This document shows, in pieces, positions 29,596-43,502 of a stretch of 54,691 bases of DNA. The position numbers and the translations under genes are program-made. A model generated the notes under the pieces. The model worked only from the letters and a program-made list of their open reading frames with translations, did not search any database and had not been told where the DNA came from. Origin of the DNA: Anaerofustis stercorihominis (lineage in GTDB: Bacteria; Bacillota; Clostridia; Eubacteriales; Anaerofustaceae); contig SVCP01000008.1 of NCBI GenBank assembly GCA_015058295.1, forward strand, positions 1-54,691, read 5' to 3'. Within the stretch, counting starts at the first letter, position 1. Every line of letters begins with the position of its first letter.

Positions 29596-30741
29596 ATGAA
29601 AAAACATATATCTGTACTCGGTTCCACAGGTTCTGTGGGAAGGCAGACCCTTGATGTAATAAGAAACAACAAAGAAATGAAGGCTGTTGCCCTCACAGCA
29701 AACTCAAATATTACGCTTCTTGAAGAACAGGCGAGAGAGTTTATGCCGGAAGTTGTCTCGGTAATGGACGAAGATGCGGCAAAAGAACTCAGGATAAAGC
29801 TTTCAGATACGAATATAAAAGTTCTCTGCGGAATGAGCGGACTTGTGGAAGCCTCCACAATGGATAAAGCGGATTGTGTACTTACGGCGGTGGTTGGTAA
29901 TGTGGGCATGCTTCCTACATTTGAAGCCATAAAAGCAGGAAAGGATATTGCGCTTGCAAACAAGGAAACTCTTGTTTCCGCAGGAAGTCTGATCACGGAA
30001 GAAATAAAGAAAAACGGAGTAAAACTCCTGCCTGTTGACAGTGAGCACAGTGCGATTTTTCAGTGCATAAACGGTACTGACAACGCAATAAAAAGAATTC
30101 TCCTCACAGCTTCAGGAGGTTCTTTCAGGGGAAGAAAGAGGGAGGAACTCAAAAATGTAAAACCTGCCGATGCTCTGAAACACCCTACATGGAGTATGGG
30201 AAGAAAAATAACCATAGATTCCGCAACACTCATGAACAAGGGACTTGAAGTAATCGAAGCAAAATGGCTTTTCGGGGTGGACGTTTCACAGATAGAAGTA
30301 CTCGTTCATCCTCAGAGCATAGTTCATTCGGCAGTTGAGTTTGCGGACAACTCCGTTATTGCGCAGCTGTCTGTTCCTGATATGCGGCTTGCCATACAAT
30401 ATGCATTGACGGCTCCCGAGAGGATTCCCTGCAGTATTGCTCCACTTGATTTTTCGGCGGGCATGAACCTGACTTTCGGGCATCCCGACACGGAAACATT
30501 CGAATGTCTTTCACTGGCTTATAAGGCTGTTGAACTTGGCGGAACGCTTCCTACTGTGATGAATGCTGCCAATGAGATCGCCGTTGAAAGATTCCTCAGT
30601 GAAGATATCGGATTTTTGCAGATAGCGGAGGTTGTCGGAGAGTGTATGAATGCTCACAGTATTGAGGAAGTTTCTTCAATAGAACAGCTTATGGAAATTG
30701 ATCTCTGGGCAAGGGATTATGCGAAAAAAATAAAACTATAG
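29596..30741 (+). CDS. dxr: 1-deoxy-D-xylulose 5-phosphate reductoisomerase
   Basis: This 381-residue enzyme makes 2-C-methyl-D-erythritol 4-phosphate in the MEP isoprenoid pathway. It has the NADPH-binding GSTGSVGRQTLDV at residues 7-19, ALANKETLVSAG, the metal and substrate site PVDSEHSAIFQ, HPTWSMGRKITIDSATLMNK and the conserved NAANEIAVERFL near the C-terminus. Length is standard. The start at 29596 has AGGAG upstream; the upstream open frame overlaps apbE and has no homology. Usual neighbours of the pathway (rseP, cdsA, uppS) are absent here. Confidence 0.96.
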   Translation: MKKHISVLGSTGSVGRQTLDVIRNNKEMKAVALTANSNITLLEEQAREFMPEVVSVMDEDAAKELRIKLSDTNIKVLCGMSGLVEASTMDKADCVLTAVVGNVGMLPTFEAIKAGKDIALANKETLVSAGSLITEEIKKNGVKLLPVDSEHSAIFQCINGTDNAIKRILLTASGGSFRGRKREELKNVKPADALKHPTWSMGRKITIDSATLMNKGLEVIEAKWLFGVDVSQIEVLVHPQSIVHSAVEFADNSVIAQLSVPDMRLAIQYALTAPERIPCSIAPLDFSAGMNLTFGHPDTETFECLSLAYKAVELGGTLPTVMNAANEIAVERFLSEDIGFLQIAEVVGECMNAHSIEEVSSIEQLMEIDLWARDYAKKIKL

Positions 30742-38660: not shown

Positions 38661-39872
38661 ATGAGGATAGAAAGAAAAATCAATAAGCATTTTTTGTTGA
38701 TAACAATATTGAGCATGATTATCCTGATAGTCGGTAATGCGTATGCGTCTGATGCAGTTTCGGTTGCAGATGAAAATGAACCGTCTGTATACGAGCTTCA
38801 ATCTGTGGAACTGAATGCTTATGCGACAGGAAACGTCCTTTTTTCGGATGTTCTGATGAAGATGACAGACTTTATTCCTGACGGAATAAATAACGCAGAA
38901 ACAGAAATATGTTATACATTCGGGTATACAGATGACAACGGAGAAAATGTACTTATCGAATATGCAGTGGAAAAAGGTGAAGTATTTGTTTTTGATGAAA
39001 AAATAGAACATATACTTGAAGATAAGCTTATTAATGTATCCGTATCTGTATCTGCAGGTGACAATGAAGGTGAAGATACGGAAGATATGATCTTCACAGG
39101 AACTGCCGGAATAAATGTGTTCTACCCGTATGTGGAATGTGTGAATGTAAAGGTTGCTGAAGGAGAGACCGTGGTGGCTATAGACGGTCTTCAGAGCAAA
39201 ACATGGCATCATAGCGGAGTAAAGGTTGCGAGAGATACAGAATTTATAGTAGACGAGCCTGTTTACAAATGTGAATATAATGAGATCATAGATGTACTCT
39301 CTGAAACTAATCAAAAGTGCTACCAGATCCGCATATTTATCGGTGAAGAAGAGTTCACATCTTCTTCCACTGTCGTAAATTTAAGTGATGAACAGTGCAT
39401 CGGCTATGATTTTCATACGGGAACAGCAAGGTTTGATCTGCACATTTACAAATATATTTCGGGATGTGATCCGGAGGCTCTCAAAGGAATGAGCTTTGTT
39501 TATGAGATAGAAAGCGACGAAGGTGAGATTTTTTATGAAGTTCTGAACTTCCTCGGAGATTCAGACGTGGAAAAAACGTCCATCATAGGGATAAAGCCGG
39601 GAAGATATACCGTAAGGGAGCTCACAGACTGGTCATATGCTTTTTCAAAAGATCCTTCCGACAGGGCGACAGGTTTCATAGTCCAATATCCCGGTATAGG
39701 TGGCAGTATGCTCGACGGAAACGTCGCTATCGGTATGGGCGAGGGTGAAGGGCAATCATGCGCAGTAACATTTTACAGTAAAATAAAGGACAAAGAATTG
39801 TATGAATCCACAGACTACGTATATTATATATGCAATGAGGATGCGATGCAGAAAAATAACGCAGCCGGATGA
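38661..39872 (+). CDS. Secreted protein with prealbumin-like (Cna-B/SpaA-type) domain
   Basis: This 403-residue protein has a signal peptide (residues 8-29, ending NAYA). Two beta-rich modules follow. The second (about 270-375: RFDLHIYKY to FYSKIKDK) contains IKPGRYTVRELTDWSY, the typical end of a Cna-B/SpaA-type domain in Gram-positive surface proteins. No LPXTG sorting motif or C-terminal anchor is seen, so it is probably released or held by another partner. No sortase is nearby. The start has GGTGA upstream. The exact role is unknown. Confidence 0.7.
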   Translation: MRIERKINKHFLLITILSMIILIVGNAYASDAVSVADENEPSVYELQSVELNAYATGNVLFSDVLMKMTDFIPDGINNAETEICYTFGYTDDNGENVLIEYAVEKGEVFVFDEKIEHILEDKLINVSVSVSAGDNEGEDTEDMIFTGTAGINVFYPYVECVNVKVAEGETVVAIDGLQSKTWHHSGVKVARDTEFIVDEPVYKCEYNEIIDVLSETNQKCYQIRIFIGEEEFTSSSTVVNLSDEQCIGYDFHTGTARFDLHIYKYISGCDPEALKGMSFVYEIESDEGEIFYEVLNFLGDSDVEKTSIIGIKPGRYTVRELTDWSYAFSKDPSDRATGFIVQYPGIGGSMLDGNVAIGMGEGEGQSCAVTFYSKIKDKELYESTDYVYYICNEDAMQKNNAAG

Positions 39873-40045: not shown

Positions 40046-40984
40046 ATGGATAATCAGACAATGATCCAGGTATATTATAAAATGCTCACGACACGCTTTT
40101 TCGAAAAACAGGCAGCAATGCTTTCGGAAATGAATATCGTAACTGCTCCTATGTATTTATGTTGCGGTTCGGAAGGTGTTGTTAGCGCTGTGGCAGCTCT
40201 TTCGGAGGATGATGCCATATTTGCGGGTCACAGAAATACATCTGTCCTTATAGGGTGCGAATGTGAGATCGAAGATATGTTCACAGAACTTCTCGGAGGT
40301 ACTGACGGATATCTCGGCGGAAAGAGCGGACTGTCGTCATATTGTGACAGCGGAGTAAATTTCTTCGGTTCAACGAGACTTCCCGCAAGTCAGTTCTCGG
40401 TAGCTGTCGGTGCTGCAATGGCGAAAAAGCTTCAGGGTGAAAACAGTGTGGTTGTATGTTTTGCAGGTGACGGAGCCTGCTGTGACGGAACATTCTACGA
40501 AGCTCTGAATATGGCAGGTGTGTATGAACTTCCTATCATCTTCTTCATTGAGAACAATGGTTACGCAGGAAAGATGCAGACAAAAGGGGTTATCGACTGC
40601 GAAGATATTGCAATCAGGGCAAACGGCTTTAATGTAAAGGCGATAATGCTCAAGGGTAACGATCCTGTCGGAATATATAATGCTGTAAAGACCGTGAGAG
40701 ACTACACCATTAAAAACGGCCCTGTCATTATCGAAGCAAAGACAAATGTAAGGTATGCTTCCGTATATGGTGAAGATACATCATATATGAAGCAGGAAGA
40801 TATAAACAATGCACTCATTGATGATCCGATAAATGCATTTTCGGAATATATCCTTGAAAAAGGTCTTCTCAACAAATCTGAGCTTACAGCCATAAAGGAA
40901 AAAGCAAAGGCAGAAGTTGAAAGTGCTCTGGACAGAGTTCTCGGTTCAATGGGCATCGAAATTTCAGATTCGGAGGTAGTGTGA
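40046..40984 (+). CDS. E1alpha-like thiamine-diphosphate protein with altered active site
   Basis: This 312-residue protein aligns along its length with pyruvate/acetoin dehydrogenase E1alpha. The thiamine-diphosphate and Mg loop is kept: GDGACCDGTFYEALN from residue 141 and IENNGYA with Asn170-Asn171. The active-site loop that reads RYHGHSMSDP in human E1alpha is NVRYASVYGED here (about 234-244), so its two His are missing. The GKGGSMH segment is GGKSGLSSY, and the YRAHG region is FAGHRN. GGAGG precedes the start. It heads a three-gene operon with ATG overlap to the next gene. True dehydrogenase activity is doubtful. Confidence 0.85.
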   Translation: MDNQTMIQVYYKMLTTRFFEKQAAMLSEMNIVTAPMYLCCGSEGVVSAVAALSEDDAIFAGHRNTSVLIGCECEIEDMFTELLGGTDGYLGGKSGLSSYCDSGVNFFGSTRLPASQFSVAVGAAMAKKLQGENSVVVCFAGDGACCDGTFYEALNMAGVYELPIIFFIENNGYAGKMQTKGVIDCEDIAIRANGFNVKAIMLKGNDPVGIYNAVKTVRDYTIKNGPVIIEAKTNVRYASVYGEDTSYMKQEDINNALIDDPINAFSEYILEKGLLNKSELTAIKEKAKAEVESALDRVLGSMGIEISDSEVV

Positions 40985-41946
40985 TGCAGGTAGAATATAT
41001 TTCAGCATTGCAGGATGCAATAAAAGACATCATGCTCAGTGACAGTTCAGCTATCCTTATGGGTATGAATATGAGTGCAGGCGGAAACTGGGGTGAAAGT
41101 TATTTTCTGTCGGATCATATTTCACGCAAGAGAATAATTGACACACCATACAGTATCAGTTCCGTTCTCGGTGCGGCTCTCGGGCTTGCGATGAGCGGAG
41201 CAAAGCCGATTGTGAGCGTAAAAGGCGAATATATGCTCAAGGCGGCAGATACTCTGGCCAACAAGATCGCAATCAACAACTATCTCACAAACGGACAGTA
41301 TTCAAGCGATATGCTTATTATTTCAGAACTTGACATCTCTGCGCAGAAAGGTGCAGAAGCTGTATTCGCATATGAGAGTATATTTGCACAGATAAGAGGA
41401 CTCGATGTTGTATGTGTTTCATGTGCAGGTGATGTGAAAAGGGTTATCAAGGCTGCTTACGAAAATGAAAGGCCGACACTCGTGTTTATCTGTACGCAGA
41501 AGCTGAAGGATTCAGCTGAACAAAACGACGATACTTATACAATAGGGAACGCAAAGGTTATAAGAGAAGGAAATGATGTAACAGTCATAACTTATGGACA
41601 GGCTGTGAGCAAGGTTGTCGATGCAGCGGAAGAAGCTTATCAGAAGGGCGTGTCTGCGGAAGTTATAGACCTGATGACACTTTCCGATGTAGATATTAAA
41701 ACAATAGAAAAGTCCGTAATGAAAACAGGCAGGGTTATCGTTGTGCAGGACGCACCGAAGAGTTTCGGTATCTGTGCGGAAGTGATTTCCCGTATAGTGG
41801 AAAGCGAAGCATTCTTTTATCTGGAAGAAAATGTACTTCGCATATGTGCAAAAGATGCAGTCGTTCCGTATTCGGGCGAATTATTCGAGGCATTTGTTCC
41901 CGGAAAAGATGAAATACTTAATGGAATAATCGATTTAGCAGAATAA
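40984..41946 (+). CDS. E1beta-like protein lacking catalytic Glu and His
   Basis: This 320-residue protein aligns with E1beta/transketolase-type subunits: RIIDTPYS (residues 50-57), LGAALGLAMSGAKP, the C-terminal domain with VTVITYGQAVSKVV, EVIDLMTLSDVDIKTIEKSVMKT and ICAKDAVVPYSG. The usual DTPISE is DTPYSI, so Ile58 replaces the Glu that activates thiamine diphosphate. The QHSQ segment with a substrate-contacting His aligns with GAEA (123-126). The start overlaps the E1alpha-like stop. Both E1 subunits are therefore degenerate at the shared active site while keeping overall fold. Confidence 0.85.
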   Translation: MQVEYISALQDAIKDIMLSDSSAILMGMNMSAGGNWGESYFLSDHISRKRIIDTPYSISSVLGAALGLAMSGAKPIVSVKGEYMLKAADTLANKIAINNYLTNGQYSSDMLIISELDISAQKGAEAVFAYESIFAQIRGLDVVCVSCAGDVKRVIKAAYENERPTLVFICTQKLKDSAEQNDDTYTIGNAKVIREGNDVTVITYGQAVSKVVDAAEEAYQKGVSAEVIDLMTLSDVDIKTIEKSVMKTGRVIVVQDAPKSFGICAEVISRIVESEAFFYLEENVLRICAKDAVVPYSGELFEAFVPGKDEILNGIIDLAE

Positions 41947-41955
41947 GGTGGAGAA

Positions 41956-43449
41956 ATGGAAAAGAGTAAGAAAATAAGAATGTCCCCGGCAGCAAGAAAG
42001 CTTGCGAAGCAGATGGGTATAAACGTAGGAGAGCTTCAGGCAGACGGAATCATCCGTTCGAAGGATATTTTATCGGCACAGGCGCAGAATGAAGCGTATA
42101 ATAATGAAATTCTGCAGGATTATAACGATGCTGTTGCTAAAACATCAGAAGATCTTACACAGAGATACTCCGATATTCTCGTTCTTGAAAGAAAGAACAG
42201 AAGTGCCGCTGCATGGCAGGATCTGAAAGAGTCTCAGGATGCCCTTCTTTGTGCATATCTTGACGAATGTAAAGAAAAAGCCGCATGCAAAAAAGCACTC
42301 GACCGTCGTTGCTGTGCAAAGAACAAGTGGCAGGAAGCTGCTCAGGAACAGACATACGCACTCAATGCTTTCCTCGCAGGAAAAGCAAGAGAGTCACGCA
42401 GAACACAGGCGACGCTGGACTGGAAAGCTGCAAAAGAAGCACAGACAGACTTTGCGAACGAATTCCTCAGCGGAAAAGCCGCAGAAAAACGCAGACAGAA
42501 TGCATATGATGCATGGAAATGTTCAAAGACGACTCAGACGGAAAAAACGAACGAGTTTCTTGCAGCATATAATGCTCAGAAACGCAAAGACGATGCTTAT
42601 GCATACTGGAAGAAAGCAAAAGCAGAACAGACAAAAGCAACGAATGCTTTCATTGACAATTATTACGAAGCATCTGCGGCTGTAAACAGAGAAAATCGCA
42701 TGAAAGCAGCGTATAATTCATGGCTCGCAATGAAGGCAGCTCAGACAGAATGTACGGAAGCTTTCCTGCAGGCTGTGGAAGACGAAAAGGCAAGACTCAG
42801 AGCACAGGAAAGAAAAGCTGCGGCAAAGGCATCATGGGAAGCATTAAAAGAAGACAGCGATGCAAAACTCGAAGAATTCATGCAGCAGTATGAAGAAGCT
42901 CAGTATGAAAAGGCATATACGGAATATGTCGCTTCTCTCGACGAATTCAATCAGGTATCTGTCGGTAAACTCGAATTTGATACGGATGTGATCGAAGATG
43001 CTGTTGAAGACAGCGAAATGCCATTCAACGATGCTCTCACAAGATATGTTGCGTCTGCTGTTGCAAAAGCCCTCGTTGATCTTGAGTGTCCGATTTATGA
43101 AAACGGCATAATGAATATAATCTCTCTCACAGGAGCAAAACCCATCAAGACTGTGACAAACGCACACGAAGGCGACTTTATGGATCTCGTATACGAAGAT
43201 GCGGTATACTTCTCCAAAGACATCAAGGTACGTATCTGGGATATCTCCGTATGCGGACTCGAAAGCTTCTTTGCAAGTCAGGGTGGTATCAATGTATACA
43301 TCAATATTGATGATGATGAAGTTGATCTTGATGTTGCTATTGATACATCTGTAATGATGGACCTTGAAGCTCTTATTTTCCTTATGAGAATGAAAGAATA
43401 CCTCTCAGGAAATGAAGAAGATGACGAAGAAGAGGAAGATGAAGAATAG
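41956..43449 (+). CDS. E2-like scaffold: PSBD + seven helical repeats + catalytically dead acyltransferase-like core
   Basis: This 497-residue protein begins with a peripheral subunit-binding domain (MSPAARKLAKQMGINVGEL to about residue 40). Residues 80-320 hold seven helical repeats marked by Trp at 87, 125, 156, 187, 218, 256 and 294, with a K-x2-Q-T...FL core. Residues 355-485 align to the E2 acyltransferase core: FNDALTRYVASAVAKAL, then WDISVCGLESFF for TFTISNLGMFG. The catalytic DHRVVDG becomes DTSVMMD (463-469), so His is Thr and Asp is Met. No lipoyl domain exists. The tail is acidic. It lies 9 bases after the E1beta-like gene. A structural or regulatory complex is my inference. Confidence 0.8.
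   Translation: MEKSKKIRMSPAARKLAKQMGINVGELQADGIIRSKDILSAQAQNEAYNNEILQDYNDAVAKTSEDLTQRYSDILVLERKNRSAAAWQDLKESQDALLCAYLDECKEKAACKKALDRRCCAKNKWQEAAQEQTYALNAFLAGKARESRRTQATLDWKAAKEAQTDFANEFLSGKAAEKRRQNAYDAWKCSKTTQTEKTNEFLAAYNAQKRKDDAYAYWKKAKAEQTKATNAFIDNYYEASAAVNRENRMKAAYNSWLAMKAAQTECTEAFLQAVEDEKARLRAQERKAAAKASWEALKEDSDAKLEEFMQQYEEAQYEKAYTEYVASLDEFNQVSVGKLEFDTDVIEDAVEDSEMPFNDALTRYVASAVAKALVDLECPIYENGIMNIISLTGAKPIKTVTNAHEGDFMDLVYEDAVYFSKDIKVRIWDISVCGLESFFASQGGINVYINIDDDEVDLDVAIDTSVMMDLEALIFLMRMKEYLSGNEEDDEEEEDEE
42214..42915 (+). repeat. Coding tandem repeats, 31/38-residue period
   Basis: Inside the E2-like gene, conserved Trp codons mark seven units with spacings of 38, 31, 31, 31, 38 and 38 residues. 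The two periods differ by seven residues, one heptad. The protein-level consensus is W..AK.AQT..TN.FL with charged residues between. DNA identity between units is low, so the array is old. Confidence 0.75.
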
Positions 43450-43460
43450 TTGACAGTACT

Positions 43461-43488
43461 AAAAAAGCCCGGTTTTCCGGGCTTTTTT
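43461..43488. terminator. Bidirectional terminator after the E1/E2-like operon
   Basis: A 12-bp perfect stem (43461-43472 with 43477-43488) with a TTTT loop and A/T runs on both sides. Confidence 0.9.
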
Positions 43489-43502
43489 TTATGTTATGTT
43501 TT

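Follow-up and report, generated by a model that had tools for sequence, protein, structure and literature searches.

Why would a bacterium keep a set of PDH-like genes whose active sites have been lost? The stretch analysed here (the window, 54,691 nucleotides of an Anaerofustis stercorihominis genome of 1.83 Mb) raises this question with three genes on its forward strand. A first-pass annotation, made from the sequence alone, had described them as overlapping or nearly touching E1α-, E1β- and E2-like genes that have kept the fold and assembly of a dehydrogenase complex and lost its chemistry.

An operon with PDH architecture and degraded active sites

The frames and Pfam domains bear out the gene assignments. 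Pseudo-E1α (40046..40984, + strand; 312 aa), a homologue of PDH/BCKDH E1α, is followed by pseudo-E1β (40984..41946, + strand; 320 aa from the ATG at 40984, or 321 from a GTG at 40981), whose ATG overlaps the TGA of pseudo-E1α as TGATG, and by pseudo-E2 (41956..43449, + strand; 497 aa). A purine-rich ribosome site precedes each of the three frames, and a GC-rich hairpin followed by a T run (43465..43490, + strand), as read from the sequence, is the likely operon terminator. Upstream of the operon lies a gene for a predicted secreted protein of 403 aa (38661–39872) that had no match in Pfam or NCBIfam. Homology of the operon proteins in the Pfam scan was far above chance level (E1_dh, 4.9e-53; Transketolase_C, 4.8e-35; Transket_pyr, 2.4e-10), and the closest solved structures were human BCKDH E1α for the α-chain and bacterial PDH E1β for the β-chain. 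The operon thus shares with the PDH/BCKDH E1 heterotetramer (PF00676, PF02779, PF02780) full-length homology in both subunits, the gene order α–β–E2 and the ThDP–Mg motif on α; it differs in lacking the β-chain Glu and His, the α-chain His motifs, a lipoyl domain and an E3 gene.

These residues were checked by alignment to solved E1 sequences and to intact E1 genes of the same family, and each substitution in the first-pass annotation was recovered. In E1β, TPxxES reads TPYSIS, which places Ile58 at the position of the catalytic Glu, and AAAQHSQ reads AQKGAEAVF, with loss of the active-site His. In E1α, GSMH has become GLSS and GHSKSD has become RYASVYGED, with the His of both motifs gone, whereas GDGA and ENN of the ThDP–Mg motif are retained; pseudo-E1 may therefore still bind ThDP, to judge from this motif. 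Pseudo-E2 carries DTSVMMD at the DHRxxDG position, where relatives show the canonical motif. A lipoyl domain, also reported missing at first pass, was not found within the operon by the Pfam scan, in which a peripheral subunit-binding domain (PSBD) was the sole E2-type domain. On these alignments, the PDH chemistry of the window operon has very probably been lost.

Pseudo-E2 combines a PSBD with a reduced E2-type fold

The PSBD (E3_binding, pseudo-E2 residues 7–38; 41974..42069, + strand) is a borderline match in the window protein (5.1e-05; 23.8 bits against a cut-off of 23.7), and exceeds the cut-off in all seven relatives scanned, with 25–51 bits. It is followed by a linker (42193..42885, + strand) built from repeats of 31 or 38 residues with one Trp each, by the region of the reduced catalytic domain (42943..43410, + strand) and by an acidic tail. 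Linker repeats characterize the window's genus, at 31–38 residues in the window and 34 in the sister species (G010), again with one Trp each; the linker is acidic in most genera. When the C-terminal 156 residues were modelled together with nine relatives, a fold was predicted with a pLDDT of 88.8, and its best PDB matches in Foldseek were E2 cores (E = 3.9e-06; TM of about 0.6–0.7 by query length). Among the matches was human E3BP (6h60), a catalytically inactive E2 relative. At 156 residues, the modelled domain falls short of an E2 core (about 230), and we confidently assign it, from the model, as a shortened E2 catalytic-domain fold, in agreement with the E2-like C terminus proposed at first pass. 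A model of the entire pseudo-E2, built from two sequences, predicted a helix in the linker and was set aside as too poor (pLDDT 46.6).

In g5 and g6, pseudo-E2 is followed by a gene (L049 5360–5854 and L013 8285–8797) whose small product has a membrane stretch at its N terminus and no confident family match.

The operon is an ancient and maintained paralogue

To place the operon in its family, we compared 13 genomes from eight genera, Anaerofustis included; like the other genomes used in this study, these are mostly draft or metagenome assemblies. Pseudo-E1 was present in 13/13 genomes, and pseudo-E2 adjoined it wherever the contig extended far enough; in one assembly (G009) the genes were scattered over short contigs. 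The frames were intact in all eight genera, and a long acidic E1α tail occurred in Anaerofustis and G005. In a tree of concatenated E1 sequences, 11 pseudo pairs formed one clade and eight intact pairs of the family another, both with an SH-aLRT of 100, although long branches leave the wider placement of the two clades unsure. For the close pair G002/G003, dN/dS was 0.05 (E1α) and 0.012 (E1β); the remaining pairs gave 0.06–0.15 at a dS that was high or close to saturation. Two dS values were not computable. The pseudo-operon is under purifying selection and maintained, and it is an ancient paralogue within its family. Its presence in every family genome searched, the selection on it and its own clade show that it is not one decayed gene set. 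The three genes stay together across the eight genera, and their conserved frames, the purifying selection, the PSBD and the modelled E2 fold uphold the first-pass view that the genes for fold and assembly were kept while the chemistry was lost.

The window's genome also holds an apparently complete PDH. On another contig (C57), the genes for E1α, E1β, E2 (motif DHAIIDG) and a lipoyl-E3 (disulphide motif CLNRGC) all look intact. The statement that there is no E3 gene thus holds for the operon and fails for the genome, and the operon encodes an additional assembly that is chemically dead. Elsewhere in the family, the E2 and E3 genes corresponding to the C57 set appear degraded in G011, and G004 and G008 have the intact E1 pair alone. 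A DXR-II-like gene and asd flank the pair in G006 and G007, where neither E2 nor E3 accompanies it. A search for the E2 domain gave no hit for G004 or G005; the matches in G006–G009 were weak and short.

DXS is mostly missing from the order

The neighbours of the pseudo-operon vary between genera; in G011 and G012, for example, it is followed by pth and mfd. In five of the eight genera ispD lies directly upstream; the other three, the window's genus among them, lack this adjacency, and no MEP gene adjoins the window copy. We extended the search to 67 genomes of the order, judging DXS absence by a single profile. DXS was found in 22/67 genomes and was missing from 45; among genomes at least 90% complete it was found in 15/48. 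None of the 13 family genomes gave a full-length match to the DXS profile, the only matches being partial ones to E1 and to split transketolases; the latter, considered as a hidden DXS, were rejected by their profile scores. IspD was present in 65/67 order genomes and IspG in 13/13 family genomes. DXR-I occurred in 43/67 and a DXR-II-like gene in 30/67, and 63/67 have one or both; the four genomes with neither are 70–87% complete. With IspD nearly universal, and DXR-I and DXR-II-like genes together likewise, these genomes seem to need DXP, yet 45 of them lack the enzyme that usually makes it. The window contig itself carries DXR-I (DXP reductoisomerase, a separate gene at 29596..30741, + strand; TIGR00243, 491.5 bits against a cut-off of 315.7), although its genome lacks DXS by the profile search. 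The only IspD-family protein of that genome (L224 6422–7132) scored highest against ribitol-5-phosphate cytidylyltransferase, at 290.8 bits, and fell narrowly short of the ispD cut-off.

Membership of the DXR-II-like group is no proof of DXR activity, since in Acetobacterium-type genomes (L214, L215 and L216) such a gene sits in sugar-alcohol PTS clusters with a full E1–E2–E3 set. The clusters might encode a catabolic route that cleaves DXP to acetyl-CoA.

Across the order, E1α lies within 1 kb of ispD in 47/67 genomes; the E1 genes that come after ispD in many of them are intact in some cases and decaying in others. As a marker of DXS loss this linkage failed: an ispD-adjacent E1 was found in 21/22 genomes with DXS and in 26/45 without. 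Because it does not track DXS loss, the adjacency may be merely an old gene order. In one contig of Eubacterium callanderi/limosum type (L100, G042), phytoene-synthase-like and desaturase-like genes are located between ispD and the PDH operon.

Intact E1 pairs are candidate DXP synthases

Several DXS-less genomes carry an E1 pair between ispD and ispF. In G060 (f4) and in G062, G063 and G066 (f5), the order is ispD, E1α, E1β, one small gene and ispF; in G059 (f4), ispF follows the pair directly. None of the five has E2 or E3 beside this pair, and all catalytic residues are kept in the pairs checked (G060, G062, G063 and G066). The E2 domain had no match anywhere in G060 or G062 and only weak, short matches in G063 and G066; G059 has a genuine E2 and a second E1 on another contig. 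PDH E1 forms 1-deoxyxylulose in vitro, and aceE mutants can substitute for DXS in E. coli (PMC3424233). A 2023 survey listed 181 species that lack only Dxs, 172 of them without a known substitute (PMC10663253). In view of this chemistry and of the Dxs-lacking species in the survey, an intact E1 without E2 that lies between ispD and ispF where DXS is missing is a good candidate for a DXP synthase, and the ispD–ispF E1 genes offer a concrete candidate for the missing-Dxs problem. No natural E1-type DXP synthase was reported in the literature searched (subscription papers and preprints lay outside the search).

Not every genome can rely on intact E1 for DXP: in g14 and g20, which have no DXS, the sole E1 found has a lost or shifted Glu. 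The intact E1 of the window's genome is part of a full PDH, which counts against a DXP-synthase role there.

A scaffold or regulatory partner as the favoured role

What, then, might the dead assembly do? Pseudo-E1α and pseudo-E1β probably assemble into the usual heterotetramer, in which the ThDP–Mg site is half kept. The PSBD would dock this heterotetramer onto pseudo-E2, and the reduced catalytic domain of pseudo-E2 would make the core. That this assembly has been kept for a structural or regulatory use is, in our judgement, probable. With DXS mostly missing in the order, isoprenoid biosynthesis is the process pointed to, and the likeliest role would be to act at the start of the MEP isoprenoid pathway as a non-catalytic scaffold or regulatory partner; that the use concerns this pathway is, taken by itself, a tentative proposal. 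In the same cells, the second, intact E1 pair is the candidate for DXP synthesis wherever DXS is lacking. We favour this combined reading, of a non-catalytic PDH-like partner, related to the ispD-linked E1, at the MEP entry alongside an intact E1 as candidate DXP maker, while rating it at a little under an even chance. A possible, if doubtful, history is that an E1 heterotetramer without E2 or E3 replaced DXS as first MEP enzyme in this order, and that in some lineages the ispD-linked copy later became a dead MEP scaffold together with E2 and, in relatives, E3. For the metabolite-sensing or storage assembly suggested at first pass, we found no evidence.

Three other explanations seem improbable to a similar degree. 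The pseudo-complex could still have enzyme activity as a ThDP carboligase able to do without the canonical Glu, and perhaps be DXP synthase itself, an idea we consider unlikely. Glyoxylate carboligase, a ThDP enzyme of a different family, sets a precedent with Val at the Glu position (PMC3534367); the window likewise has a hydrophobic Ile there, most members retain GDG..NN and a conserved E1α Arg, and the DXS-less g14 and g20 have only E1 without Glu in place. The remaining site in the operon E1 is degraded in comparison, however. Depending on the genus, the residue at the Glu position is Ile, Ser, Lys, Asp/Arg-like or an unchanged Glu, unlike what one preserved mechanism would leave; the E1β His is lost in all pseudo members; and the ThDP motif has lost its second Asn in G008 and its second Gly in G007. 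As for DXS itself, the operon E1 belongs to the same ThDP superfamily and has MEP context in relatives, but its α and β chains are separate, of E1 type, and gave no full-length DXS match.

Pseudo-E2 might instead act like the E3BP (protein X) of fungal and mammalian PDH, adding pseudo-E1 to the genuine PDH core of the same cell. Eukaryotic E3BP similarly joins a PSBD to an inactive E2 fold, reduced in fungi (PMC10156792), and both the Foldseek match to human E3BP and the genuine E2 in the window's genome fit this proposal. It has little probability in our estimate; the pseudo-operon, and pseudo-E2 with it, also occurs in genomes in which a genuine E2 was not found (G004 and G005, with only the weak matches in G006–G009). 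The operon further differs from E3BP in being bacterial, in having both E1 subunits dead as well and in its Trp-repeat or acidic linker.

The varying neighbours, and a window copy without an adjoining MEP gene, would suit a scaffold or regulator of a process other than isoprenoid synthesis, such as the steps encoded by pth or mfd; we hold this to be improbable too, given that ispD is the only neighbour common to most genera. Least likely of all, with little weight, is that the operon is a decaying and now functionless relic of an ispD-linked PDH: the residue loss is progressive and differs from genus to genus, and the ispD linkage is old, but we set the decayed-gene reading aside on frames open in eight genera and dN/dS far under 1, and repeat or acidic linkers have evolved.

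A dead E1 and E2, with E3 in relatives, kept across many genera would constitute a multi-subunit pseudoenzyme. Within the literature searched, again excluding subscription papers and preprints, there was no report of a dead bacterial PDH complex; inactive PDH parts appeared only as single subunits, such as E3BP.

Losses in family f3

In family f3, the ispD-linked operon extends into E2 and E3 genes. E2 has lost DHRxxDG and, where readable, the lipoyl Lys, and E3 the redox disulphide, in g14, g16 and g18–g21. From the residue losses in the window's family (f1) and f3, the chemistry was lost and the proteins were kept in at least two lineages. E1 is intact in g16 and in G058 (g21), and degraded to a varying degree in g14 and g18–g20; the E2 and E3 losses of this family thus reach further than those of E1.
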